Positions 1-39,442 of a DNA stretch of 57,624 bases are shown piece by piece (within the stretch, counting starts at the first letter, position 1; each line of letters opens with the position of its first letter). The position numbers were made by a program, and so were the translations under genes. The notes beneath the pieces are model-generated. The model was not told where the DNA came from and made no database searches. It saw only the letters and a list, made by a program, of their open reading frames with translations. The stretch is from a virus, in the IMG/VR virus record IMGVR_UViG_3300010354_000104, positions 1-57,624 of that record; one strand, 5' to 3'.

Positions 1-1583
1 TCAACTACTTGGAGTCTTTCTTTTAATTCGGCAACGTCCGTTGCACAATTGTCTAATTCTATTTGAGCTAATGCAAACTCCTTGCTAAGAGCCTTACACT
101 CTGCCATAAGGGAGTCTACCTTGGGTTGGTTGTCGGACACGGAAGCTTTGGTCTTGGCAATATTGGCTTCTAGCTTCTGAGTCTCAGCTTCGAGAGATGA
201 TTTCGTGAAATTGTACACAGAGACAGAAATCTCGATGACTTTGATTTTTTCTTGAAATTGATTGAGTTGCTCTTGGGTTTGAGCTGCTGGCAGAGGTGCC
301 GGCCCTAGCTCGGTTGTTTCTGCCTGCAATTCTGTCAATTCTTTCTTAATGCTCCATAGCTCGTTTTGACTTTTATAAAGCTTGTCTAATAAGTCAGAAA
401 CCTTGTCTAGCTCCTGCATGACTTCCTTTAAAGACAAAATATGCGGAGTCTCTGTCTTAATGAGCTTGTTATTGGAAAGTAAGACTTGCTGCTCACAGTG
501 AGGGCAAGACAGGGCGTTTTGATTAATCTCTAATGTGTATTTTTGTTTTTTAAGTTCAGCCTCTTTGGTCTTCAACTCTTTAAGCTTGTCTGCAGTATCA
601 GAAAGAGACTTGTCAATCTGACCTGCATTTCCGTGCTTTTGCACGATATTTTGAATTTTTTGAAGCTTCTTGACGGCCTCCGCTGATTTCGCTAACCAGA
701 CAGTTTGTGCCTGAATTAGAGAATAGGCGGCTTTAATCTTTTCTGCGGTGTACTTTTCATCGGGAGGTTCTAACGAATTTAATTTGTCTTTTTGTTCAAT
801 CAGGTTTTTTGTATGTTCACTTAAAGCATTCTCAAGATTGTTAATAACATTCTGCAGGTCGCGAGTTGCATCTTTAGTATCTTCGAGCAATTTCTTCTTT
901 TCGTTAAAGTTTTTCTCAGCGTTTTTGTATTTTTGCCTAACAACGTCTGCGTCAGCAAATAAAAACAGACGCTCAGCCGCTGTATAGACGGGCTTTTTCT
1001 GCTCACTAAGGCGAGCCTCGGCAGCTTCTTGAGCAGACTTAGCTGTTTGAGCCATCTCAGCAAGCAAAGTCAACTCAGATGCCTGAGTTTTGATTGTCCC
1101 CTCAATTTCTTTAATCATGGCTGAAATTTTGGCTTTATGGATTTCTGGGTCGTCAGCTCCAAAGGCAATCTTCTGAACAAAGCGAAGCTGCTCTGCTGGA
1201 CTAAACGACAGCAGCGACCCCTTGAGTTTTTGTTTAATGTAAGAACAAGCCTGAAAAATATCTGCATTCATGCCCAGTGTAGTGTCAATAAAAGCCTGAG
1301 CAGCCTCATTCTCATACTGATTGGACTCGATAAGCAGCCTATTAGGCGAGTTCTGCCGCAAAACGGGCATGTCTTTGAATGTGATGTTTACAATAGGCTT
1401 CTTGCTGCCAGTCAAAGGTTTTACACCCTTGGCAACAGCTTCTCCGTATAGACCCCAAGAGATAGCATCAAGGAATGTAGACTTGCCAGCACCTGAGTCG
1501 CCGGCAATACGAACAAGGCCCGTATTAGGCAATTCAATCTCTTTGTCTTCAATAGACCGAAAGTTTTGAATCTTAATTTTCAT
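1..1583 (-). CDS. sbcC: SbcC / T4 gp46-like recombination nuclease ATPase subunit (partial)
   Basis: ATPase subunit of an Mre11-Rad50 type nuclease, which pairs with the SbcD-like protein encoded at 2214-3185 to process DNA ends in recombination-dependent phage replication. Read leftward from 1583, the protein opens with a Rad50-type N-terminus and a Walker A motif GDSGAGKST at about residues 28-36. Long charged coiled-coil sequence follows, with a CPHC zinc hook near residue 358 (about base 500) and then the returning coiled coil. The C-terminal Walker B and signature region lies beyond the left edge, so about 527 codons are visible. The ATG overlaps the TGA of the Mom-like gene (ATGA), implying translational coupling. 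The zinc hook plus Walker A makes the family secure; the exact subfamily is inferred. Confidence 0.9.
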   Translation of the reverse strand, partial: MKIKIQNFRSIEDKEIELPNTGLVRIAGDSGAGKSTFLDAISWGLYGEAVAKGVKPLTGSKKPIVNITFKDMPVLRQNSPNRLLIESNQYENEAAQAFIDTTLGMNADIFQACSYIKQKLKGSLLSFSPAEQLRFVQKIAFGADDPEIHKAKISAMIKEIEGTIKTQASELTLLAEMAQTAKSAQEAAEARLSEQKKPVYTAAERLFLFADADVVRQKYKNAEKNFNEKKKLLEDTKDATRDLQNVINNLENALSEHTKNLIEQKDKLNSLEPPDEKYTAEKIKAAYSLIQAQTVWLAKSAEAVKKLQKIQNIVQKHGNAGQIDKSLSDTADKLKELKTKEAELKKQKYTLEINQNALSCPHCEQQVLLSNNKLIKTETPHILSLKEVMQELDKVSDLLDKLYKSQNELWSIKKELTELQAETTELGPAPLPAAQTQEQLNQFQEKIKVIEISVSVYNFTKSSLEAETQKLEANIAKTKASVSDNQPKVDSLMAECKALSKEFALAQIELDNCATDVAELKERLQVV

Positions 1584-2206
1584 TGTTTTTTTTCTTTAAT
1601 ATAAGTTTCTAAAATAAATTGTTTTTTGCTGCTTTTATTACGAACTATAGGATATAGCCAAATAGTTTTTGGTAAACCTGTTTTTAAAACAGCCTCTCCT
1701 GTCTTAAGAGCATCTCTCATTTTGTAACTATAATCTCTATCAATTGTGATAGACCTTGGATGATAAGTTTTTCCATTCCATTCTACAAATTTTGTAGGCG
1801 TTGTCGTTCCTATTTTTTTAAAATTAGCTGCTTTATAAATTGTTCCGCTGTGTCCTACGGTCGCATCGCTGTACGATAGTACATTTTCATAATCTGAATT
1901 AAATTTAACCCACTGAATAATTTGACCTAAAAACCAACTTTCACTATTAACAGGGGCGCTATCTAAACAAGCCATTCTACGAATGTCTATACAATTTTTG
2001 TATTTTTTTTCATGTCTGGGTTTTCCTAATACGCTACCGCCGACTAATTTATCATCTATAAACATAGCAAAACACACGCTAATTCCGCCGCCCATGTGAG
2101 CTTTTTTATAATGAAAATTTTGAAAAATTTCTCGGATATCAGCAAATCTGCAAATTTTTATTTTGCATCTTTTTTTATCTAATCTTTCCCTTGTATCGTT
2201 TGACAT
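1580..2206 (-). CDS. Mom-like DNA modification protein (GNAT-type fold)
   Basis: Probable relative of phage Mu Mom, the enzyme that modifies adenines in phage DNA and blocks restriction. The 208-residue protein shows the arrangement I associate with this family: an HYKK motif near residue 32, a central substrate-fold segment (FIDDKLVGGSVLG), RRMAC, then NSESWFLGQ and a GHSGTIYKAANFKKIG block resembling the Mom-family GHxGxIYqAxNW signature. An upstream TTG at 2221 is possible, but the ATG at 2206 has GAGG five bases ahead and is preferred. The gene sits between the two subunits of the SbcCD-type nuclease and is visibly more AT-rich than both, suggesting later insertion. A generic GNAT acetyltransferase is the alternative. 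Confidence 0.6.
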   Translation of the reverse strand: MSNDTRERLDKKRCKIKICRFADIREIFQNFHYKKAHMGGGISVCFAMFIDDKLVGGSVLGKPRHEKKYKNCIDIRRMACLDSAPVNSESWFLGQIIQWVKFNSDYENVLSYSDATVGHSGTIYKAANFKKIGTTTPTKFVEWNGKTYHPRSITIDRDYSYKMRDALKTGEAVLKTGLPKTIWLYPIVRNKSSKKQFILETYIKEKKQ

Positions 2207-2213
2207 GCTATCC

Positions 2214-3185
2214 TCAAGCAAGAGCTTCGTTAAAAATGCTCATCAACTCTGTATCGTCACTTCCTACCATTTCCTTTAGGAGTTCCAAATAGGTTTTTTT
2301 GACAATGGTCGCATTTAAGGAAAGTTCGTTTTCAGTTGGACATAATACAATTTTGACATTTTTTTGTGCGAGTTCTGAATATCCTTTTGTTTTTTTAAAT
2401 GCAGACAGGGCAGACGCCTCTCCTTCCAGCATAAGGCGCAGATGAGTATTTTCTGGAACTTTAAACTTTTTAACTTGGTCAAGAGTCAACTTAACAGTCA
2501 GCTTTTTGGGCATACCAAGGTCAATTCGGGTGTGCTTTACAGATTCACCGAATTCAAACAGACTCAGGCCCTTCTCATCAGTTTCGGCAAAGGTCGTCAT
2601 GTAGGGAGTGCCAACATAACAAATGTTCTTTTCTAGCCACTGATGCTCATGAATATGGCCACTAATGACTAGGGGGAAGTCTTCTGGCCATTTGTCGCCA
2701 TGTTCCATCTTGATGCCGTTTAGCTCAACTCCGTAAAAGTCTTGATGGCAAAAAATAGCCTTTGCGCTCTTCCAGCCTTCACACGTATCAAGTGCCTCTA
2801 CAAACCTTCCTGCAGGCACGTAGGGCATCAAAATTAAACCATAGTGGCTAACTACTCTATCTACAATCTTGACGCGGTCTAGGCCGCCAAATGCCTTTAA
2901 AAAATGGTTGTCTGACAAAAACTGAGAGTTGTTGATGTAGTCATGGTTTCCTACAAGAACATATACCGTACAGATTGAGCCAATTTCCTTTAAGAGTTTT
3001 AGGACTTGATTAAATGGTTGAACGTAGGTTGTTCCGTGATTGTGGAGCAAGTCTCCCATAAAAACGACAATATCGGGAGAGGACTCCCAAACTTTTTCTT
3101 TTAGCTTTTCGATTAGTAAGTCATTTTCTACAATAGATGAATGTCTAAAGTGAACATCCCCAACACATAAAATTCTTAAATCCAT
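2214..3185 (-). CDS. sbcD: SbcD / T4 gp47-like recombination nuclease subunit
   Basis: Metallophosphoesterase nuclease subunit, expected to form a complex with the SbcC-like ATPase encoded downstream. All calcineurin-like metal motifs are present in order: GDVHFRH near residue 9, GDLLHNH near 45, GNHDY near 80, HQDF near 148 and GHIHEHQW near 177. The length of 323 residues suits phage gp47 and SbcD proteins. The C-terminal third has the mixed capping-domain character of the family. In most phages the two subunit genes are adjacent; here the Mom-like gene separates them. Its stop overlaps the region just before the Mom-like start. Confidence 0.92.
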   Translation of the reverse strand: MDLRILCVGDVHFRHSSIVENDLLIEKLKEKVWESSPDIVVFMGDLLHNHGTTYVQPFNQVLKLLKEIGSICTVYVLVGNHDYINNSQFLSDNHFLKAFGGLDRVKIVDRVVSHYGLILMPYVPAGRFVEALDTCEGWKSAKAIFCHQDFYGVELNGIKMEHGDKWPEDFPLVISGHIHEHQWLEKNICYVGTPYMTTFAETDEKGLSLFEFGESVKHTRIDLGMPKKLTVKLTLDQVKKFKVPENTHLRLMLEGEASALSAFKKTKGYSELAQKNVKIVLCPTENELSLNATIVKKTYLELLKEMVGSDDTELMSIFNEALA

Positions 3186-14785: not shown

Positions 14786-16471
14786 ATGGAACTAGAAAAA
14801 CTCAAGAAATACGGCGAAGCACCTGATTTTCTTACTGAGATTGGTTATAAAACATTGTTGGGTGGTTATCTCCTCCCTAATGAAACTCCTAAAGGCATGT
14901 GGAGCCGAGTTGCGCGCACAGCCGCTAATATTCTTAAAAAACCAGAACTTGAAGAAAAATTTTTTAATATGCTCTGGAGGGGATGGGTAGGACTTGCTAC
15001 TCCAGTGGCTAGCAATATGGGTACAAACAGAGGATTGCCTATAAGTTGTTATTCAATTTCTCCAATGGACTCAACTAGTTCTATTTTAGAAAAAGGCCAT
15101 GAGTTGGCAATGTTGACAAAAAATGGTGGCGGTGTCGGTGTTTATATGGGAGACTTACGGCCTGCGGGGTCTAAAATTAGAACAGGTGGAACATCCGAAG
15201 GTATGATTCCGTTTGCAAAGATTTACGATTCTATTACCGTAGGCATTAGTCAAGGAAATGTACGCCGTGGCGCTGCAGCTATTTATCTTCCCGTTGACCA
15301 TGGCGATATCAAAGCCTTTCTGCGCATGCGCCGCCCCGAAGGTGACCCTAATCGCCAATGCCTCAATCTTCATCACGCCGTTTGTATTCCAGATAGCTTT
15401 ATGCACAAAGTGCAGTCTGGAGATGAATCTTCTCAAGAGCTATTAAGGGAAATTTATAAGGCACGCCTTGAGACAGGTGAGCCGTATATTTTTTATTCAG
15501 ACAATGTAAATTCACAAAATCCAAAAGCATATACAAAAAATAACTTAAAGATTTCAACAAGTAATATCTGCAGTGAGATTGTTTTGTATACCGACCACGA
15601 CCATACTTTTGTTTGTTGTTTGTCTTCTCTTAATCTAGCTAAATGGCACGAATGGAAAGATACAGACACAGTCGAGTTGTCCGTTTACCTTCTTGATGCC
15701 GTACTGACTGAGTTTATTGAGAAGGCTCAAAAGCTACAAGGCTTTGAGTCTGCAGTTCGTTCTGCCATCAAGGGCAGAGCATTGGGCTTGGGCGTCATGG
15801 GTTGGCACACTTTGCTGCAGCAAGAGCGCGTAGGGATGGGGTCATTTAGAGCCAAAATTCTTAATAAAGCTATCTTTAAAAATATTAACGAAAATGCAAT
15901 CAAGGCATCTAAGAAACTCGCCGAAGAGTTTGGTGAGCCAGAATGGTGTAAAGGAACAGGACTACGGTCTAGCCACTTAATCGCTATTGCTCCTACAGCA
16001 TCCAACTCTCTTATTACAGGCAATATTTCTGCAGGTATTGAACCAATCAACGCTAATGCGTATGTCAAAAAGACAGCTAAAGGCACTTTTATTGAATTTA
16101 ATCCTCTACTTAAGAAAAGACTTCAAGAGCTAAGCAAAGATACCGAAGAGGTATGGAACGCTATCGTTAAAGATGAGGGGTCAGTTCGAGGACTAGACTT
16201 CTTGTCAGAAGAAGATAAAGATGTCTTTAAGACTGCTTTTGAGATTGACCAACTGACTCTTATTGACTTGGCGGCAGACAGACAGCCATTTATTTGTCAG
16301 GCACAGTCTTTAAATTTATTTTTCTCAAAAGATGTAGACCCTCAATATTTTCACGAAGTTCACTGGACAGCATGGCAGAAAAAAGTTAAGACCCTCTATT
16401 ATGTACGCAGCTCCTCTGTCTTGAGGGCTGACTTGTCTTCGAGAGGTGAATGTGTCGCGTGCGAAGGATGA
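14786..16471 (+). CDS. nrdA: Class I ribonucleotide reductase, alpha (catalytic) subunit
   Basis: Reduces ribonucleotides to deoxyribonucleotides. Motifs include ISCY (catalytic Cys, near residue 85), the KNGGGVGVYMGDLRPAGSKI loop, NICSEI (the NxCxE active-site signature), FVCCLSSLNL (second redox Cys), IAPTASNSLITG and a C-terminal CVACEG (CxxC redox shuttle). The N-terminal ATP-cone is absent: the protein begins almost directly with the ten-stranded barrel region, so dATP feedback inhibition through the cone should be missing (inference). At 561 residues it is short for the family. The following deaminase gene overlaps its 3' end by 20 bases. Confidence 0.96.
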   Translation: MELEKLKKYGEAPDFLTEIGYKTLLGGYLLPNETPKGMWSRVARTAANILKKPELEEKFFNMLWRGWVGLATPVASNMGTNRGLPISCYSISPMDSTSSILEKGHELAMLTKNGGGVGVYMGDLRPAGSKIRTGGTSEGMIPFAKIYDSITVGISQGNVRRGAAAIYLPVDHGDIKAFLRMRRPEGDPNRQCLNLHHAVCIPDSFMHKVQSGDESSQELLREIYKARLETGEPYIFYSDNVNSQNPKAYTKNNLKISTSNICSEIVLYTDHDHTFVCCLSSLNLAKWHEWKDTDTVELSVYLLDAVLTEFIEKAQKLQGFESAVRSAIKGRALGLGVMGWHTLLQQERVGMGSFRAKILNKAIFKNINENAIKASKKLAEEFGEPEWCKGTGLRSSHLIAIAPTASNSLITGNISAGIEPINANAYVKKTAKGTFIEFNPLLKKRLQELSKDTEEVWNAIVKDEGSVRGLDFLSEEDKDVFKTAFEIDQLTLIDLAADRQPFICQAQSLNLFFSKDVDPQYFHEVHWTAWQKKVKTLYYVRSSSVLRADLSSRGECVACEG

Positions 16472-16910
16472 AAAATTAATTAAAGAAGACGGGCATTTTA
16501 TTGCTTACGCCGTCATTGTAAGTAAATTTTCTCCCGATAAAAAAAGACAAGTCGGTGCAGTTGTGGTTAAGGACGGTCACAAACTATCGGATGGTCACAA
16601 CAAACCAGTTCCTAATAAAAAAATAGATAATTATTTTTGCCAATCAAAGCAACCGTTTATGATTCACGCTGAAATGGATGCTTTATTAAAACTTACTTTA
16701 AAACAAACTAAAAACTCCACTATTTATACTACCTTAGCTCCTTGCATAGAATGTTGCAAACTCATAGCTGCATGCGGAATTGATAGGGTGGTTTATAAAG
16801 AAGACCATAAAGATGCAAATGTTAATTATTTAAAAGAGTTAGGCATAACAGTCGATAAATATATTGACATTTTGAAATATTGTGATAAAATTGAATCATT
16901 GCAGGAATAA
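16452..16910 (+). CDS. dCMP deaminase-like zinc enzyme
   Basis: Zinc deaminase of the CMP/dCMP family, likely converting dCMP to dUMP for dTTP synthesis. Zinc motifs are HAEMDAL near residue 73 and APCIECCKLI near 97, with a KRQVGAVVVKDG strand ahead of them as usual. The C-terminus has IDRVVYKEDHKDANVNYLKELGI, typical of the fold. Length 152 residues. The start is embedded in the end of nrdA; GTG at 16452 has GAGG five bases ahead, while GTG at 16446 is also possible. A second, divergent deaminase is encoded at 30063. Confidence 0.85.
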   Translation: MSRAKDEKLIKEDGHFIAYAVIVSKFSPDKKRQVGAVVVKDGHKLSDGHNKPVPNKKIDNYFCQSKQPFMIHAEMDALLKLTLKQTKNSTIYTTLAPCIECCKLIAACGIDRVVYKEDHKDANVNYLKELGITVDKYIDILKYCDKIESLQE

Positions 16911-28710: not shown

Positions 28711-28737
28711 TAAAGTTTTTTTGTTGACTGTCGATAA
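28711..28737 (+). promoter_or_regulatory. Sigma-28-like promoter B
   Basis: TAAAGTTT (28711-28718), 11 bases, GTCGATAA (28730-28737): 15 of 16 matches to the flagellar sigma-28 consensus with exact spacing. It precedes the operon 28779-31380 (unknown, aminotransferase, deaminase, GmhA, HTH). A TTGAC just inside the spacer could also serve a sigma-70-type polymerase. Confidence 0.75.
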
Positions 28738-28778
28738 GAGTTATGTAAGCAGTGACCATTAACCATTAAGGGGGATTT

Positions 28779-29108
28779 ATGACAATCAATGATGAGTTCT
28801 TCAAGAAGACCCAAGAAAACCTTAAGAAAATCAAAGCACAAAACAACCAAAAAACCCTTAAGTCATACAACATTGATGGCAAGGCTGAAGAAGTAGAAGA
28901 ATTACCCTCAACTCAGCCTTCTCAGCCACAAGAAACTACAAATAATGTTGTGAGTTTGGCTGATTTTAGAAAAAACAAAAAAGATATAGCTATTAAATCA
29001 AATCTCTCCCTTGAAGAAAGACACAAAAGAATTTCAGAAACTGTAAAAAGAATTAATAGTTTGATGGATCAACTTCAAAAAAACAACAACAGGACTTCAA
29101 ATGATTGA
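28779..29108 (+). CDS. Small charged protein leading the aminotransferase operon
   Basis: A 109-residue hydrophilic protein, largely helical at both ends with a disordered Gln/Pro/Thr-rich centre ([11 protein letters not shown]). [13 protein letters not shown] motif near residue 65 resembles short linear peptides used for partner binding. AAGGGGGA precedes the ATG. Its end overlaps the aminotransferase start by eight bases. No family recognised. Confidence 0.5.
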
Positions 29109-30066
29109 CCTTAGAATTGGCAACCCAGACCTTCTTATAGAACTCTTCACCCAAAGACTTCCCCATGATAGAGTTGTCACCTCTATTATGGGAGGTATGC
29201 CTTATAACAAAGAAGGACCGCATCAAGAAGTCGTAGATGCCATTAAAGCTCTTCATAACAAATACCATCCTAATTTGATTACTCCTAACAGCAAAATCGT
29301 TGTTGGAAGCGGAGCGTCTCAACTTCTAAGTTGTTTTTTTCACTTACATAAAGAAGCGGGCGTGCCTTCGCCTTATTGGTTTAGAATTCCCATGCTATCT
29401 CAAATGCACAACTCAAAAGTTAAATTTTCTGCATTTAATAATGAATTTAACTTGCTAACATATCCTAGTAATCCAAGCGGCTCTCTTCCATTGTTGAGAT
29501 ATAATTCAAAAACTTGGTACGATTGCGTATATTTGTGGCCATGGTATTTTCATTCAGAAAAACTTTATCACGAAGCCGTTGCTGATTTAGTCGAAGAACC
29601 CAAAACAGCGACTATCTTTACGTTGTCTAAGATGACAGGCCACTGCGGAGTAAGATTTGGGTGGGCAATTGTAGAAGATGAAAAAGTAGCAAAAGATATC
29701 AGCGAATATATGGAATTTGAGTCTGGCGGAGTTGGGTACGATACCCAAGTCAAAGCAACAGAAATTATCAATACTCTTGTAGCCGATGAATCATGGTCGG
29801 AAGAATTGGCAAATATTCAAGGAATCTTGACCGAAAGAAAGGAAATGTTGCAGGATTTTTGTCATAAAAATGAATGGTCTTATCCCAAAGGGTTGGGGAT
29901 GTTTGCGTGGATTCAAATTCCCGATGGCAGCGCTGTCGATGCTTTTAGAGAGTTAGGGATTTTGGGCACTTGTGGAACTAAATGCGGTGGGTCTATTAAT
30001 CAAGTGAGATTGAATTTGGCCGTAGATACAAAAACTTGGGATGAGGTTCTAAAGGTTATTTCATGA
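29101..30066 (+). CDS. PLP-dependent aminotransferase, alliinase/TAA1-like
   Basis: Fold-type I PLP enzyme of 321 residues. The PLP-lysine motif [17 protein letters not shown] near residue 177 closely follows the FTxSKxTGHAGxRxGWA signature of the plant alliinase / tryptophan aminotransferase (TAA1) group. [10 protein letters not shown] near 65 binds the phosphate side, and TYPSNPSG near 120 is the PxNPxG element. The C-terminal domain ends in a normal RLNLAV strand. Substrate unknown. The genes after it (deaminase, GmhA) overlap it by four bases each, so the three form one translational unit and may serve one pathway, perhaps modification of a nucleotide or sugar. Such an enzyme is unusual in phages. 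Confidence 0.8.
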
Positions 30067-30455
30067 AAGAAAGAATTAAGCCAGCACAAAAAGCAGCAAA
30101 GAAGGCGGAGCATTACCGCTATTACCTCGGCGCTGCTTTGTTTTATAAAGACAAGCTGATTTCGACTGGCTGTAATTACCTTAGTAAAACGCACCCGCTA
30201 TGCAACGAGGAAACTTACGGCAGGCCCGTAACACTGCACGCCGAAGTTAATGCTTTAATTAAGGCCAGAGACTTTCTTAATAGTTTAACTAAGACTGAAA
30301 AAAAGAAACTCATGATGGTTACTTATAGAGAGACTAAAGATGGTTGTTGGGCAAACGCCCGCCCCTGTTCCGGTTGTATGGCTATTTTGAAACAAAACAA
30401 TATAAAAACAATAATGTATACGATTGAAAATGGCTTTACAGTGGAGGAACTATGA
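30063..30455 (+). CDS. Second zinc-dependent deaminase
   Basis: A 130-residue cytidine/deoxycytidylate-type deaminase with [10 protein letters not shown] near residue 59 and [10 protein letters not shown] near 100 as zinc motifs. It differs from the nrd-linked deaminase at 16452: the AHFYKDKL-type first strand, NARPC signature and [11 protein letters not shown] end resemble a phage deaminase group of unknown substrate rather than classical dCMP deaminase. Location between an aminotransferase and GmhA, with ATGA overlaps on both sides, hints at a dedicated pathway. Confidence 0.8.
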
Positions 30456-31054
30456 GTGAGCTAAACCAAATTCTTAAAGAAGAGGCTATGATGAAGGAAG
30501 CCTTTGATAGTCATGAAGCATTAACTCATCTTACTTATGAGCACTGCGGCTCTACTATTTTAAGGATTGCATCCTACATAACCGACGCTTTAGGGAATGG
30601 CCGTAAAGTTATCTTGATGGGGAATGGAGGAAGTGCTGCTGACGCTCAGCATTTGGCCGCTGAGTTGGTTGGTAGATTTACTCGTGAGAGAAAAGGACTG
30701 CCGGCAATTGCCTTGACGACTGACTCATCTATCTTGACGGCAATCGCTAATGATTATGGATATGATCAAGTCTTTTCAAGGCAAGTCGACGCCTTAGCTC
30801 AAAAAGGCGATGTTGTTATCGGTATTTCTACGTCTGGCAATAGTCCTAATATATTGAAGGCTATGGAGATTGCTGCCAATAAAGGATGCATTTTGATTGG
30901 TTTTTCTGGAGGCAGAGGAGGAAATTTATATAAAAATACGGATTTGTGCGTCATAGTGCCTTCTTTGGTTACAGCTAGAATACAAGAAATGCACATTTTG
31001 ATTGGACATGTACTATGCGATATCATTGAAAGTTATTTTTTAGAAAAGAGTTGA
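30452..31054 (+). CDS. gmhA: Phosphoheptose isomerase (sedoheptulose 7-phosphate isomerase)
   Basis: SIS-domain isomerase converting sedoheptulose 7-phosphate to glycero-manno-heptose 7-phosphate, the first step to ADP-heptose used in lipopolysaccharide cores and some glycoproteins. The 200-residue protein matches the family throughout: GNGGSAADAQHLAAELVGRF near residue 52, ALTTDSSILTAIANDYG near 86, GDVVIGISTSGNSPN near 113 and the C-terminal EMHILIGHVLCDIIE zinc-binding helix. Length equals bacterial GmhA. No other heptose pathway genes (HldE, GmhB) are in the window, so it must rely on the host or feed another product. Confidence 0.95.
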   Translation: MSELNQILKEEAMMKEAFDSHEALTHLTYEHCGSTILRIASYITDALGNGRKVILMGNGGSAADAQHLAAELVGRFTRERKGLPAIALTTDSSILTAIANDYGYDQVFSRQVDALAQKGDVVIGISTSGNSPNILKAMEIAANKGCILIGFSGGRGGNLYKNTDLCVIVPSLVTARIQEMHILIGHVLCDIIESYFLEKS

Positions 31055-31122
31055 TTATGAATGTTAAAGATGTTATTAAAAGTTTAATCGAGAATGCCCT
31101 CGGTTATTTTAAGGAGAAAGTT

Positions 31123-31380
31123 ATGCGTCGTAATTTGCCGTCCACTTACACAGAAGTTGCTATTGAAGTTCTTGCTGCGGCAGGCAGCCGCGAACTTACA
31201 GCAGCTCAGGTTTTTGAAAATGCACGTAAGCGCGGATTGCTCCGTCGTTTTACCGCTCAGGGCCGCACTCTTGAGAAAGTTCGCGTAGGGCTTTCGGCCA
31301 AACTTCGCCAGTCGTCGAGTTCAGGCAATAGCGGAATCGCTGTTCGCCAAAAGAATGGCGTCAACCTTTATTCAGTCTAA
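31123..31380 (+). CDS. Small winged-helix (HARE-HTH-like) protein
   Basis: An 85-residue basic protein. The order of segments, STYTEVAIEVLAAAGSRELTAAQVFENARKRGLL, then GRTLEKVRVGLSAKLRQ and a final RQKNGVNLYSV hairpin, matches the HARE-HTH winged helix known from RNA polymerase delta subunit and chromatin proteins. AAGGAG stands six bases before this ATG; the longer frame starting at 31051 lacks a site. A small basic winged helix could bind DNA or act on polymerase. Fold assignment is by eye. Confidence 0.55.
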   Translation: MRRNLPSTYTEVAIEVLAAAGSRELTAAQVFENARKRGLLRRFTAQGRTLEKVRVGLSAKLRQSSSSGNSGIAVRQKNGVNLYSV

Positions 31381-31390
31381 AATAAAAACT

Positions 31391-31657
31391 ATGTTTGAGA
31401 CTTTTATAGTAGCAGGCATAGTTTCTTATTTTGTAGGGCAGATTCGTCTGCCCTCTTGCATTATTGGTGCAGAAAACAAGAATTACTGTGTTTCTAGGCA
31501 ACATGCCAACATCAAGTCAGAGCGCATAGAAGTAGTAAAAAAGCTCAACACTAATCCCAAAGATGCCCGCGTAATAATTAAATTAAAAGAATATGGAACA
31601 ATTTCAGTTCCTTATGACACAAATAAACTTACCATTGATTATCACATTAATTTTTAA
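31391..31657 (+). CDS. Small membrane-anchored unknown protein
   Basis: An 88-residue protein with an N-terminal hydrophobic segment (FETFIVAGIVSYFVGQI) and a soluble basic part. It probably inserts once in the membrane. Neither the ATG at 31391 nor the in-frame one at 31355 has a clear ribosome site; 31391 avoids overlap with the previous gene and follows a TAAAATA element at 31379, so it is preferred. No family recognised. Confidence 0.4.
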   Translation: MFETFIVAGIVSYFVGQIRLPSCIIGAENKNYCVSRQHANIKSERIEVVKKLNTNPKDARVIIKLKEYGTISVPYDTNKLTIDYHINF

Positions 31658-31658
31658 T

Positions 31659-31685
31659 TAAAGTCTTTCCGTTGACCGCCGATAA
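31659..31685 (+). promoter_or_regulatory. Sigma-28-like promoter C (best minus 10 match)
   Basis: TAAAGTCT (31659-31666), 11 bases, GCCGATAA (31678-31685). The minus 10 box is a perfect sigma-28 match. The ATG of the next gene lies 21 bases further with GGAGG between. GTTGACC inside the spacer is a secondary sigma-70-like feature. Confidence 0.75.
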
Positions 31686-31706
31686 GACTTATATTGGAGG
31701 TAAAAC

Positions 31707-32269: not shown

Positions 32270-33805
32270 ATGAGCACTGGTTATCAGTTTGTAGGCCAGC
32301 AAGACTTGGCCAAAATTAGAGAACGCCTTGAGCGCATGGCTAAGTCGTTCAACGCCATCGGTTATCAAGGTATGCAGAACGCTGGCCGTACAGGCATCAG
32401 CGCCCTTACTATTGACTCCGCTGACCCTGTAATGTACGCAATCTGCGCGCAGGAAAAGCAGCTCAAGTTGATGAAGAACGTCAAAACCCTTAAAGCTACC
32501 CAGCCTGTTTACTTCTATAAAGTACAGACTGCTATCGCTACTCAAGGTCTTGACCTTGCTGGCTTTGAAAACTTCATGCCACAAGAAGACCAAGCTCAGT
32601 ACGAACAAGTTGCTGAACCGCTCAAAATCTATGGTATTAAGAAGACTCTTGGTGACATGGTTCGCCTAACTAACGAAGCAGGCGGCTTCTTTGACGGTAT
32701 CGACATCGAAAAAGAAAATGAGCGCAACGCTGCTATGGCTCTTTCAACACAGTTTGAGCGCGACGGCTACGCTGGTGGTGACTACTATGTTGACGCTGCT
32801 GGTCAAATCGACGTTGAAACTCCATTGAAGTTCCTTGGCAACCGCCGCATTCCAGCTATTCGTCAGCTCCGTGGTATTCAAAACAATATCCGCGAAGGTG
32901 AGCGCGCTACTCGTGGTGTTACACCAGACTTCGTTGCTTATGGTAACAGCTTCTCAGTCGTTCAGGACCTCAAGGGCAAGGCTCTTGACCAAGAAGTTCT
33001 TGACGATACAACTACAGCAGTTGTCTCCAACGCGGGTGAAGTTTCAGAAGCTCACGCTACTCCAGCTCAAATTGCTGAGTTCCGTAAGACTTTCTTCGGC
33101 CTTCAGCGCGGCGACATCGCTCAGAACTTTGCAATCCGTGGACCAGACCTCAGCAACGCTGAAGAAGGTGGATTTGCAATTATGTCTGTTAGCGGTCTAG
33201 TTAAGTTCATTCCTGCTATCTATAAGCACTCTGTTCGTCAGAAGGCTCTCCCTGTTAGCGGAACTAACGGCAACCCTCCTGCAACTCCAGTTATCGCTGC
33301 AGCTAACCTTACAGTTGGTTCAGTTGGCTCAGAATTCAAAATCGGCGATAAAATCAAGTTTTTGGTTCAAGCTACCTCAATCTTCGGCATCAGCTCACCA
33401 GCTATGTCCGGCGAACTTACCGTTACCGTTGATGGACAGGGCGTTGACCTCTCTATCGCTGCTCAAGCCGATGCTGAAGCGTTTATGGTCTTCATGACCC
33501 CACGCGAAGCTGCTGGTAAGGCTGGTTCAGAAGGATTCGTTGGTAAGGTTGTTAAGGCTGCTTCCGGAGCAACTGCATTCAAGTATGTTGGCGCAGTAAT
33601 GCCAGGCTATGAAAGCGTACTCTTCATGCCTTCAAGCGAAGACCGCGTTAAGCTTGCAGTTCTTGGTAACCTCCTCAACAAGTCTGACCTTGGTCGTCAA
33701 GGTTTGGCTCTTGAGAGCGTATTCAGCTCGTACTTGGCTGTTGTACTCCATAAGCCACGTTCGTTCGCTCTTCTTGACAACGTCAAGCAACGTCGTCGCA
33801 TCTAA
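32270..33805 (+). CDS. Major capsid protein with inserted FN3/Ig-like domain
   Basis: A 511-residue shell protein. Evidence is length, position between terminators, very strong codon bias toward abundant-tRNA codons, and an HK97-like order: N-terminal helix (QDLAKIRERLERMAKSF), E-loop region near residues 100-120 (PQEDQAQYEQVAEPLKIYGIKKTL), P-domain helices and a C-terminal segment with DRVKLAVLGNLLNKSDLGR. Residues 335-435 form an insert with a fibronectin/Ig-type pattern (KIKFLVQATSIFGISSPAMSGELTVTV), likely displayed on the surface as in other myophage capsids. No maturation protease is visible nearby. GGAG precedes the ATG by nine bases. Confidence 0.8.
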   Translation: MSTGYQFVGQQDLAKIRERLERMAKSFNAIGYQGMQNAGRTGISALTIDSADPVMYAICAQEKQLKLMKNVKTLKATQPVYFYKVQTAIATQGLDLAGFENFMPQEDQAQYEQVAEPLKIYGIKKTLGDMVRLTNEAGGFFDGIDIEKENERNAAMALSTQFERDGYAGGDYYVDAAGQIDVETPLKFLGNRRIPAIRQLRGIQNNIREGERATRGVTPDFVAYGNSFSVVQDLKGKALDQEVLDDTTTAVVSNAGEVSEAHATPAQIAEFRKTFFGLQRGDIAQNFAIRGPDLSNAEEGGFAIMSVSGLVKFIPAIYKHSVRQKALPVSGTNGNPPATPVIAAANLTVGSVGSEFKIGDKIKFLVQATSIFGISSPAMSGELTVTVDGQGVDLSIAAQADAEAFMVFMTPREAAGKAGSEGFVGKVVKAASGATAFKYVGAVMPGYESVLFMPSSEDRVKLAVLGNLLNKSDLGRQGLALESVFSSYLAVVLHKPRSFALLDNVKQRRRI

Positions 33806-34257: not shown

Positions 34258-35172
34258 TTAAAATCGCCACTCTACGTGGCCGGTTTCTACAACTGATTTA
34301 TTTAATATAAATTGTCTTGGTCTGGGAAACATATTTGGCGCATCAAACTGTGCCGACAAAAAAACATCGTCCAGCACATTTTGAAGTCCTCTGGCACCTA
34401 AGTTTTTTTGCATAGCATTTTCAATAATTGTATCAATCGCACTATCTTCGACCACTAGTTCAATTCCTTCGCTATCAAACCACTCTTTGTATGAGTTCAA
34501 TACGCTTTCTTGAGAGCTTAATAAAATGTTTTTTAGTTCGTTTGCCCCCAATGTTTCTAAAGAGGCTACAATACTAAAACGTCCTAAGAATTCCGGAATC
34601 ATACCGTACTTTATTAAAGCTTCTGTTTTATGCTCTTCTAGGCCAACAAAGGCGCCAGAACAGATAAACAAAATATTTTTTGTATGAAGCTTTCTTGGGT
34701 TGTGGTTAATCTCATATCCTATTTCACTGCCCTCTAAAAGCTTTAGTAAGCTTTGTTGAACTCCCACCCCATTTACGTCGGGAGAGCCATCGTGGCTTGA
34801 TTTGCGCCTAATTTTGTCAATTTCATCAATATAAACAATTGCTTTTGAAGCAACATCGTCGTTAAATTCACACATTGCGCATAATTCGCTAATAATTTCA
34901 GTAACATCTTTTCCAACATAACCAGCACTAGTGAATTGCGTTGCATCAACCGTCATAAACTTTGCATTTAAAAATTCTGCAAGTTTTTGAACGGTGTAAG
35001 TTTTTCCGCTCCCGCTAGGGCCAATCATTAGGACATTTGATTTTTTAATGTTTGCCCCATAAAAAGCCCTCTTGTAATGGTTATAAGCGGCAACAGACAA
35101 AGCTTTTTTTGCCCTTTCTTGTCCAATTACAAAAGCATCGAGATAACTTTTAATGTCCTGAGGAGTAAACAT
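34258..35172 (-). CDS. clpX: ClpX-like AAA+ unfoldase lacking zinc domain and ClpP-docking loop
   Basis: ATP-driven protein unfoldase of 304 residues. Motifs: GPSGSGKT (Walker A, near residue 50), TSAGYVGKDV (pore-1 GYVG), IVYIDEIDKI (Walker B, near 112), GVQQSLLKLLEG, IPEFLGRF and NLGARGL (sensor 2). It starts directly at the AAA+ region, so the N-terminal zinc-binding adaptor domain of bacterial ClpX is absent. After CSGAFVGLEEHKTEALIKYG there is no room for the roughly 40-residue stretch with the IGF loop that docks ClpP in E. coli ClpX (compared from memory). It should therefore remodel proteins rather than degrade them with ClpP (inference). The only leftward gene in this half; separate promoter needed. 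Confidence 0.92.
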   Translation of the reverse strand: MFTPQDIKSYLDAFVIGQERAKKALSVAAYNHYKRAFYGANIKKSNVLMIGPSGSGKTYTVQKLAEFLNAKFMTVDATQFTSAGYVGKDVTEIISELCAMCEFNDDVASKAIVYIDEIDKIRRKSSHDGSPDVNGVGVQQSLLKLLEGSEIGYEINHNPRKLHTKNILFICSGAFVGLEEHKTEALIKYGMIPEFLGRFSIVASLETLGANELKNILLSSQESVLNSYKEWFDSEGIELVVEDSAIDTIIENAMQKNLGARGLQNVLDDVFLSAQFDAPNMFPRPRQFILNKSVVETGHVEWRF

Positions 35173-36319: not shown

Positions 36320-36346
36320 TAAAGTTATTATTTTTAGCTCCGATAA
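36320..36346 (+). promoter_or_regulatory. Sigma-28-like promoter D
   Basis: TAAAGTTA (36320-36327), 11 bases, TCCGATAA (36339-36346): 14 of 16 matches to the flagellar consensus. The ATG is 21 bases further, with GGAGG between. Confidence 0.7.
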
Positions 36347-36367
36347 GAATAATAATGGAGGTGAACT

Positions 36368-37632: not shown

Positions 37633-38540
37633 TGCTAAAGTACATAGCTTTGGCGGCATCGGCTCTATCTCTGAGTGCTACAGCACAAGAGGCAATAGAG
37701 CTGACTCCGCCAGAATGCCTACAATCAAATATTAACTTTTGGCATGACGTTTACACAAAATACACAAAGCACGATATTATCGTTTACAATCAAAAGACAA
37801 TGCAAGTCTACAATGTCTATCCTCGTCCAAGGGGAAATAAAAAAGCAATTAAAAAATATAAAAAACACTTGTTGCATAAATATACAAAATTAATGCCCAA
37901 AGAGAAAAAGAATATTGCAGTCAAGGCGGGGGCAAGAGGCTTCTTTGAAAGAGGCTTTGAGAGAATGCACGAACATTACCCCAAGATAGCAGAAAAGCTA
38001 AAGCAACAAGGAATGCCACATCAAATCGCTTTCTTGCCATTTGTAGAGTCAGCTTACTCGTATAAAGCAACAAGCCCAGTAGGAGCAGTCGGAGCATGGC
38101 AAATCATGCCAGCAACCGGTAGGCTTTTTGGAATCAAAAAGAAAGTAAAACTTAGAGACAACAAGATAGCTACAGACGTGGCTATCAAGCTCCTTAAGTT
38201 TAATTACGAGATGTTGGGAGATTGGACTTTGGCTATCAATGCCTATCATTCCGGCACCGGACGACTCTTAAAAGCATCCAACATGGCAAATTCAAAAAAC
38301 ATTTGTGAAATACTCAACTATCTTGACGAAAATGACGTTACTATTAAGGGATACAAGTTCTATAGCAGAAACTATGTAGCTCAATTGTTTGCTATTGACA
38401 AGGCAGTGACGGAAAGGCTAAACCCTCACGTAGAGGACGAAGCCGAAGAAATAGAAGAGGGGGTTCAGAATGAGTTTGAAGAGGAAGCTGGAGATGCAAC
38501 TGGATTTGAGGAGTCCGACAGGGAAGACACTACACCTTGA
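37632..38540 (+). CDS. Exported lytic transglycosylase (MltD-like)
   Basis: Cleaves peptidoglycan glycan strands, probably the phage endolysin or an envelope-degrading enzyme. Residues 1-19 are a signal peptide (LKYIALAASALSLSATAQEA). The SLT core is clear: AFLPFVESAYSYKATSPVGAVGAWQIMPATGRLFG, with the catalytic Glu of FVESAYS near residue 136, then the NAYHSGTGRLLKA motif near 215. Length 302 residues. The C-terminal 40 residues are very acidic and encoded over the start of the next gene. A signal peptide implies export by the Sec system, so holin need may be indirect. Confidence 0.9.
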   Translation: MLKYIALAASALSLSATAQEAIELTPPECLQSNINFWHDVYTKYTKHDIIVYNQKTMQVYNVYPRPRGNKKAIKKYKKHLLHKYTKLMPKEKKNIAVKAGARGFFERGFERMHEHYPKIAEKLKQQGMPHQIAFLPFVESAYSYKATSPVGAVGAWQIMPATGRLFGIKKKVKLRDNKIATDVAIKLLKFNYEMLGDWTLAINAYHSGTGRLLKASNMANSKNICEILNYLDENDVTIKGYKFYSRNYVAQLFAIDKAVTERLNPHVEDEAEEIEEGVQNEFEEEAGDATGFEESDREDTTP

Positions 38541-38874
38541 AGATGTAAAAAGCCTTAGGTCTTTACGTATTCATGACGCAGGGGATGCAGACAATATCTT
38601 TTTGGTTGACGTAGTAGACTTGGGTGGCAACCTTCTTCAAAACTACACATGTGGTTTTGAGTGCGTTAGTCTTATTTGCGCTATGTTGTATTCAGAAGGT
38701 GACGCGGAAGACAAAACCCAAGTAACTGTTTCTTTTGAAGCCCTTGTTAATGCCTTGACTATGTCCCGTAATGCGGGTTATACAGATGCAAGCAAGGGTC
38801 TTCTCGAAGATGATACGGAAGAGGAAGCTTTGCAAGAGTATATGAACCGCGAAACTAATGTTACTTTGAACTGA
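38470..38874 (+). CDS. Unknown acidic protein overlapping the transglycosylase gene
   Basis: A 134-residue protein starting 71 bases inside the preceding gene in another frame, with GAGGGGG six bases before the ATG. Mixed alpha/beta sequence with an acidic C-terminus (LLEDDTEEEALQEY). No family recognised. The long overlap is real in that the upstream acidic tail and this N-terminus are both read. Confidence 0.55.
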   Translation: MSLKRKLEMQLDLRSPTGKTLHLEDVKSLRSLRIHDAGDADNIFLVDVVDLGGNLLQNYTCGFECVSLICAMLYSEGDAEDKTQVTVSFEALVNALTMSRNAGYTDASKGLLEDDTEEEALQEYMNRETNVTLN

Positions 38875-38881
38875 GGCTATT

Positions 38882-39442
38882 ATGAAAGTATCAGAAGAGG
38901 CGCTCAATCATCTGAAGTCATTACAAGTAGACCCTACCAAGTTGTCTGAAGAAGAATACTTCATGGCAACTCATATTCAGATGCCTAGACTTATCTACAG
39001 GGGCCCTAACGCCAATCCCCTGCCTGCATACCAAACAGAGCAGTCAAGTTGCTTTGACGTCTTAGCTGATGAGTATGTAACTATTCAGCCAAAGTCGTAT
39101 GTAGTAATCAGGACTGGCCTCTATCTGACTATGGAAGATGCCGCCCACTTCATCAATCTTAACCCCGCAGTCATGAATCTAGCTCTAGTCCTTAGAGAGC
39201 GTTCCGGCTTGGCGGCCAAAGGTATTGGTTTAGGTGCGGGTGAAATCGACAGAGATTATCTCATTGAAAATAACCCAGAGAACGAAATCAAAGTCATTCT
39301 TAGGAACTTTTCCGAAGTTCCACTCGAAGTCAAAGCTGGAGATAGAATCTGTCAGGCTAAGTGGGAGCTAGTTCTTAAAGACCCGTTTCTTGAAACTAAG
39401 AACCATAAGCGCATTGGCGGGCTAGGAAGCACAGGCACATGA
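38882..39442 (+). CDS. dut: dUTPase
   Basis: Hydrolyses dUTP to dUMP and pyrophosphate, keeping uracil out of DNA and supplying dUMP. All five trimeric dUTPase motifs appear in order: SSCFDVLAD (motif 1), RERSGLAAKG (2), GAGEIDRDY (3, with catalytic Asp and Tyr), GDRICQAKW (4) and RIGGLGSTGT (5, variant of RGxxGFGSTG). An extra 40 residues at the N-terminus and an insert between motifs 1 and 2 make it longer (186 residues) than usual. GAGG precedes the ATG. Complements the reductase and dCMP deaminase genes in nucleotide supply. Confidence 0.95.
   Translation: MKVSEEALNHLKSLQVDPTKLSEEEYFMATHIQMPRLIYRGPNANPLPAYQTEQSSCFDVLADEYVTIQPKSYVVIRTGLYLTMEDAAHFINLNPAVMNLALVLRERSGLAAKGIGLGAGEIDRDYLIENNPENEIKVILRNFSEVPLEVKAGDRICQAKWELVLKDPFLETKNHKRIGGLGSTGT

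Follow-up and report, generated by a model that had tools for sequence, protein, structure and literature searches.

A phage branch of the TAA1/alliinase aminotransferase clade, with some members encoded beside a deaminase and a GmhA-type isomerase

The phage aminotransferase and its plant relatives

The tryptophan-aminotransferase clade was described in a 2022 review as almost exclusively plant (PMC9309667); algal and choanoflagellate relatives, together with weak prokaryotic ones, have been discussed, and the ancestry of the clade's plant genes has been in dispute (PMC4754409). Two of its members provide the closest comparison for the locus analysed here: TAA1, the L-tryptophan aminotransferase of Arabidopsis (PDB 3bwn/3bwo), in which Thr101 is a phosphoswitch residue (PMC6997161), and garlic alliinase, an alliin lyase (PDB 1lk9/2hor). 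In alliinase, an EGF-like domain lies N-terminal to the Alliinase_C domain (PMC10015382). Our main result is a diverse phage branch within this clade, which has been regarded as nearly plant-specific. The locus belongs to IMG/VR virus record IMGVR_UViG_3300010354_000104, analysed over all of its 57,624 bases (the window). The phage is tailed, its major capsid protein being encoded at 32270-33805. A short ClpX-like AAA ATPase (304 aa; 34258-35172, minus strand) is encoded in the direction opposite to the structural genes.

The aminotransferase matches Pfam Alliinase_C at 2.5e-29 (102.8 bits against a curated cut-off of 22), and all 13 records searched exceed that cut-off, although a match to this family is not specific by itself, since it is also reached in some control genomes; Aminotran_1_2 also matches, at 6e-8. 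A PDB search with the single sequence returned only TAA1 and alliinase, and a phage profile of ten homologues placed TAA1 (2.2e-62) and alliinase (7e-50) ahead of the next protein (1.3e-13). With 21 phage sequences as input, AF2 gave a model (pLDDT 87.4, pTM 0.88; a poor model from 10 sequences, with pLDDT 57, was left unused) whose best fold match is TAA1 (TM 0.84, 3.1 Å) and whose second is garlic alliinase, with generic aminotransferases behind (TM ~0.72, rmsd ~5 Å). Among the viral proteins of BFVD no clade member was seen, the top hit, at 15% identity, being a diaminopimelate aminotransferase from a giant virus. Phage and plant proteins split from three generic bacterial class I enzymes in a tree with support of 100/100; the tree held only two plant sequences and does not settle the branching order of the phage lineages relative to that pair. 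By profile, predicted fold and tree, then, the enzyme is a true member of the TAA1/alliinase clade, and the assignment that a first-pass annotation had drawn from the SKxTGHxGxRxGWA motif is confirmed and strengthened.

Seven residues (Y35, N124, D141, Y144, K177, R185, and R303) do not vary among 21 phage proteins, and TAA1 and alliinase have the same letters at these positions. The PLP lysine, K177, falls within the SKxTGHxGxRxGWA motif, and the retained arginine R303 is the one that usually binds the α-carboxylate in this family. With these residues conserved, the protein has the intact catalytic site of a fold-type-I PLP enzyme. TAA1 has its clade, fold, and catalytic residues in common with the phage enzyme at ~24% identity; both carry YxWPxY as well as the lysine motif, and both lack an N-terminal EGF-like region. 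The phage proteins are shorter (~306-352 aa, compared with 391 for TAA1), and Ser73 occupies the position of the Thr101 phosphoswitch. Garlic alliinase shares Alliinase_C, the PLP lysine, and the flanking motif, but scores below TAA1 against the phage enzyme; its type of N-terminal EGF-like extension is absent from the phage protein, which starts, and aligns, at alliinase residue 59.

Layout of the operon

The aminotransferase gene lies in a run of overlapping genes on the plus strand (Table 1). The first-pass annotation had placed a trio of aminotransferase, deaminase, and phosphoheptose isomerase at 28779-31054; its genes and overlaps stand, including the two ATGA joints between aminotransferase and zinc deaminase (30063-30066) and between deaminase and GmhA (30452-30455), with both partner families matched. 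The start does not, as the first segment is a separate ORF of 109 aa that overlaps the aminotransferase gene by 8 nt (ATGATTGA). Outside the window, this ORF adjoins the aminotransferase gene only in the three relatives G001, G002, and G004, which also keep the position of the small fifth ORF; for the latter, ATG at 31057 is the likely start, while the ORF list gives TTG at 31051. Between the window and its near-identical relative G001, dN/dS is 0.11 for the aminotransferase, 0.07 for the deaminase, 0.18 for GmhA, and 0.26 for the 109-aa ORF. Over the tested operon genes, values from unsaturated comparisons span ~0.05-0.26, indicating purifying selection, and the ORFs are therefore real genes.

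Table 1. Features of the operon and its surroundings, with the Mom-family gene of the same window
Feature	Position	Strand	Evidence or remark
Mom-family DNA-modifying enzyme	1580-2221	-	PF25680, 1e-23; also in G001, G002, G004
Promoter-like motif TTGACTGTCGATAAGAGTTAT	28724-28744	+	2 exact copies in the window; putative function
109-aa protein without assigned function	28779-29108	+	Weak phrog_19033 match; dN/dS 0.26
Aminotransferase, 321 aa, PLP-dependent, TAA1/alliinase clade	29101-30066	+	Pfam, profile, predicted fold, tree
Zinc-dependent dCMP/cytidine-type deaminase, 130 aa	30063-30455	+	Pfam, PHROG, and PDB matches
GmhA-type phosphoheptose isomerase (SIS domain), 200 aa	30452-31054	+	PDB 2xbl, TIGR00441
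Small protein with weak HARE-HTH similarity	31057-31380	+	E 0.0036, below cut-off; same operon, downstream
Promoter-like motif, second copy, opening the next unit	31672-31692	+	Motif search

Just upstream of the operon lies a motif of the form TTGAC-N3-CGATAAGA-N-TTAT. With up to 3 mismatches allowed, chance would give ~0.14 matches; very similar copies occur in G001 at the two positions corresponding to those in Table 1. We infer that the motif is a phage promoter, and its spacing is consistent with a single transcription unit from ~28750 to 31660. The motif precedes further gene groups, with a plus-strand copy at 36333-36353, and it occurs in G004 as well as G001.

Neighbouring genes and their conservation

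Of the 28 contigs with the aminotransferase, only three (G001, G002, and G004) share the window's grouping of aminotransferase, deaminase, and GmhA, and across this clade the ATGA couplings are kept, even where a 71-aa ORF separates deaminase and GmhA. In two deeper relatives (G003 and G413), the deaminase lies 17-18 kb from the aminotransferase gene and GmhA is absent from the contigs; nine other aminotransferase records carry neither gene. Among viral contigs, recognisable members of the deaminase family are limited to the clade of the window phage and those two relatives. Of 49 viral contigs that carry a GmhA relative, G001, G002, and G004 have the aminotransferase within 6 kb, and the other 46 do not. 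On these gene orders, the trio is kept together in one phage clade only, as a local grouping and not a conserved pathway. We accordingly reject the idea, raised in the first-pass annotation and made there to depend on conservation in relatives, that the trio forms a single pathway: the neighbourhood is limited to one clade and broken in its nearest outside relatives.

Elsewhere the aminotransferase gene keeps different company, as far as neighbour names read by eye from translations indicate. It lies between zinc-ribbon and SMC-like genes, downstream of GroEL, in G006, G008, G009, G011, and G012; near an apparent ribonucleotide reductase and small replication-region genes in L073, L078, L079, L085, and L087; upstream of apparent terminase genes in L070, L071, L080, and L081; and without a recognisable partner in other contigs. 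No gene is common to all of these settings, and we therefore conclude that the aminotransferase works alone on host metabolites. A packed order of GroEL, zinc ribbon, TAA1-like aminotransferase, and SMC/gp46-like ATPase is seen in five contigs (L042:7238-12227, L044, L045, L047, and L048).

The deaminase is dCMP-deaminase-like by its matches to dCMP_cyt_deam_1 (PF00383, 4.5e-10), phrog_174 dCMP deaminase (5.5e-14), and a dCMP deaminase in the PDB (8.9e-5), with the zinc site HAE...PCSGC and a KTHP motif present. Phage dCMP deaminases of the same family (phrog_174; cyanophage ACG-2014f; Stenotrophomonas phages) have HAE...PCxxC and are ~35% identical to it. A role in nucleotide supply is the simplest reading, since the phage has a further dCMP deaminase of more canonical type (16446-16910, plus strand, after the ribonucleotide reductase genes) and also encodes ribonucleotide reductase and dNMP kinase.

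GmhA matches PDB 2xbl, a sedoheptulose-7-phosphate isomerase, at 3.8e-55 over residues 27-195, Pfam SIS_2 at 1e-27, and TIGR00441 gmhA at 2.7e-60, with 202.9 bits narrowly under the cut-off of 209.45. Unlike the usual setting of that enzyme, the phage lacks a heptose kinase and nucleotidyltransferase: neither PF00294 nor PF01467 was found in G000-G004, the rest of the ADP-heptose pathway is not encoded alongside GmhA there, and two family scans of G001 proteins, one of them covering the first 25 families listed, showed no heptose kinase. Any ADP-heptose would therefore need host enzymes. The three GmhA-bearing relatives G001, G002, and G004 all encode GlpX, of the class II fructose/sedoheptulose bisphosphatase type, and a GT9 glycosyltransferase with heptosyltransferases as its best NCBIfam matches, which makes a heptose phosphate the probable product of GmhA. 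A GlpX phosphatase can in principle yield sedoheptulose 7-phosphate, the GmhA substrate. Caulobacter phage Cr30 offers a precedent for a sugar role in that it also encodes GmhA; there, however, the gene sits with a heptose-7-phosphate kinase, a glycosyltransferase, and an epimerase, and no aminotransferase or deaminase is annotated beside it. The sugar role suggested in the first-pass annotation is thus plausible for GmhA by itself and does not extend to the trio. The GlpX of G001 (L025:299-1198; G001 38299-39201) is a phage class II fructose bisphosphatase (4.2e-93) kept in G002 and G004. On the other hand, G011 and G012 carry GT9 but no GmhA; the GT9 of G012 (L056:10441-11358) is 71% identical to the G001 protein, although aminotransferase identity between these two phages is just ~25%, which suggests exchange of the GT9 gene.

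In the DNA of phage Mu, adenine is the base that Mom modifies, and jumbo phages too have enzymes of the Mom family (PMC7824862). By its Mom-family gene, the window phage may likewise have DNA modified at adenine. Mom was above cut-off in no aminotransferase record searched other than those with the trio, many of the records being fragments. Since it is restricted to trio-bearing records, its co-occurrence with the trio could reflect shared descent as well as a functional link, and the lack of matches above cut-off in the other records leaves nothing to tie Mom to the aminotransferase. Modified DNA, which the first-pass annotation had envisaged through the trio, is thus possible by way of Mom, and DNA modification by the trio itself is unsupported.

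Functional readings and the origin of the phage branch

We consider it reasonably probable that the operon groups phage metabolic genes with no joint function, which share a transcript by happenstance, with transaminase, nucleotide deaminase, and GmhA acting separately. The aminotransferase, most likely a stand-alone α-amino-acid transaminase, would move an amino group between a host α-amino acid and a keto acid, using host metabolites only; by analogy with TAA1, the amino acid may be aromatic or hydrophobic. The deaminase would convert a cytosine nucleotide to the uracil form within the phage's nucleotide-supply set, and GmhA would convert sedoheptulose 7-phosphate to heptose 7-phosphate, the probable supply for a glycosyltransferase of host or phage. 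What the data show is clade membership, intact catalytic residues, purifying selection, and no conserved linkage; what each enzyme acts on, the shared transcript, and any gain for the phage are inferred. Against independent action, the ATGA couplings kept across the clade could mean shared regulation or function. Taken further, the tight overlap in all four trio-bearing records, the Mom-family enzyme of the phage, and GT9 in its relatives would favour a trio that jointly builds an amino- or heptose-modified nucleotide, or a sugar decorating DNA, virion, or host surface. We regard this as very unlikely: the trio is confined to one clade, each gene also occurs without the others, R303 and the fold point to α-amino-acid substrates, and no DNA-modification family besides Mom was present among the G001 proteins scanned (one scan covering the first 25 families listed). 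The sugar aminotransferases known so far fall into other PLP families.

A different chemistry for the PLP enzyme, as a lyase, is also conceivable, being either an alliinase-like cysteine S-conjugate β-lyase or a γ-eliminating enzyme with a sulfur amino acid or S-adenosylmethionine as its substrate. Alliinase, a C–S lyase, belongs to the same clade, ACC synthase, which acts on S-adenosylmethionine, to the same fold-type-I family, and the PLP-binding residues all suit either reaction; however, both the profile score and the E-value of the fold search place TAA1 nearer than alliinase, and the alliinase N-terminal extension is missing, so that we judge a lyase rather unlikely compared with the transaminase. 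It is barely credible that the gene is an ordinary bacterial class I aminotransferase, recently acquired from a host, in which the TGH motif arose by chance. Class I aminotransferases are abundant in bacteria and the Aminotran_1_2 match is compatible with such an origin, but three bacterial class I enzymes scored 25-47 bits against the phage profile, compared with 216 for TAA1, and phage members whose identity to the window protein falls to 23% still keep the PLP residues and YxW. Nor was a bacterial gene with the signature found: run against 84,980 genomes of bacteria and archaea, the TGHxGxRxGWA DNA pattern matched twice, both times outside an aminotransferase frame, and at 1e-12 the profile picked out no clade member in 398 Pseudomonadota genomes. 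The pattern is of modest sensitivity for such a search, recovering fewer than half of the phage members (12 viral contigs, compared with 28 IMG/VR contigs from several phage lineages in a broader search). These searches strongly suggest that the clade is rare in bacteria, and a bacterial origin of the aminotransferase was rejected with that sensitivity in mind.

Among 50,697 GenBank phage records, three divergent phage queries gave no aminotransferase match at E 1e-5, and none of the literature searched described the phage branch of the clade. An unexpected amino-acid enzyme is kept under selection in many uncultured phages, and the phage branch provides new outgroups for the question of where the plant genes came from, in a clade that makes auxin's precursor in plants. 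As a tentative and on balance doubtful extension, phages may form a large, old non-plant reservoir of the clade, with which they redirect aromatic or sulfur-containing amino acids in the cell they infect, and plant TAA1 and alliinase may have arisen from that shared prokaryote or virus gene pool. In its tail-fibre region, G001 also encodes a deoxyhypusine-synthase-like protein (L026:9939-10898; G001 66939-67901; PF01916, 2.8e-40), which may act on polyamines.
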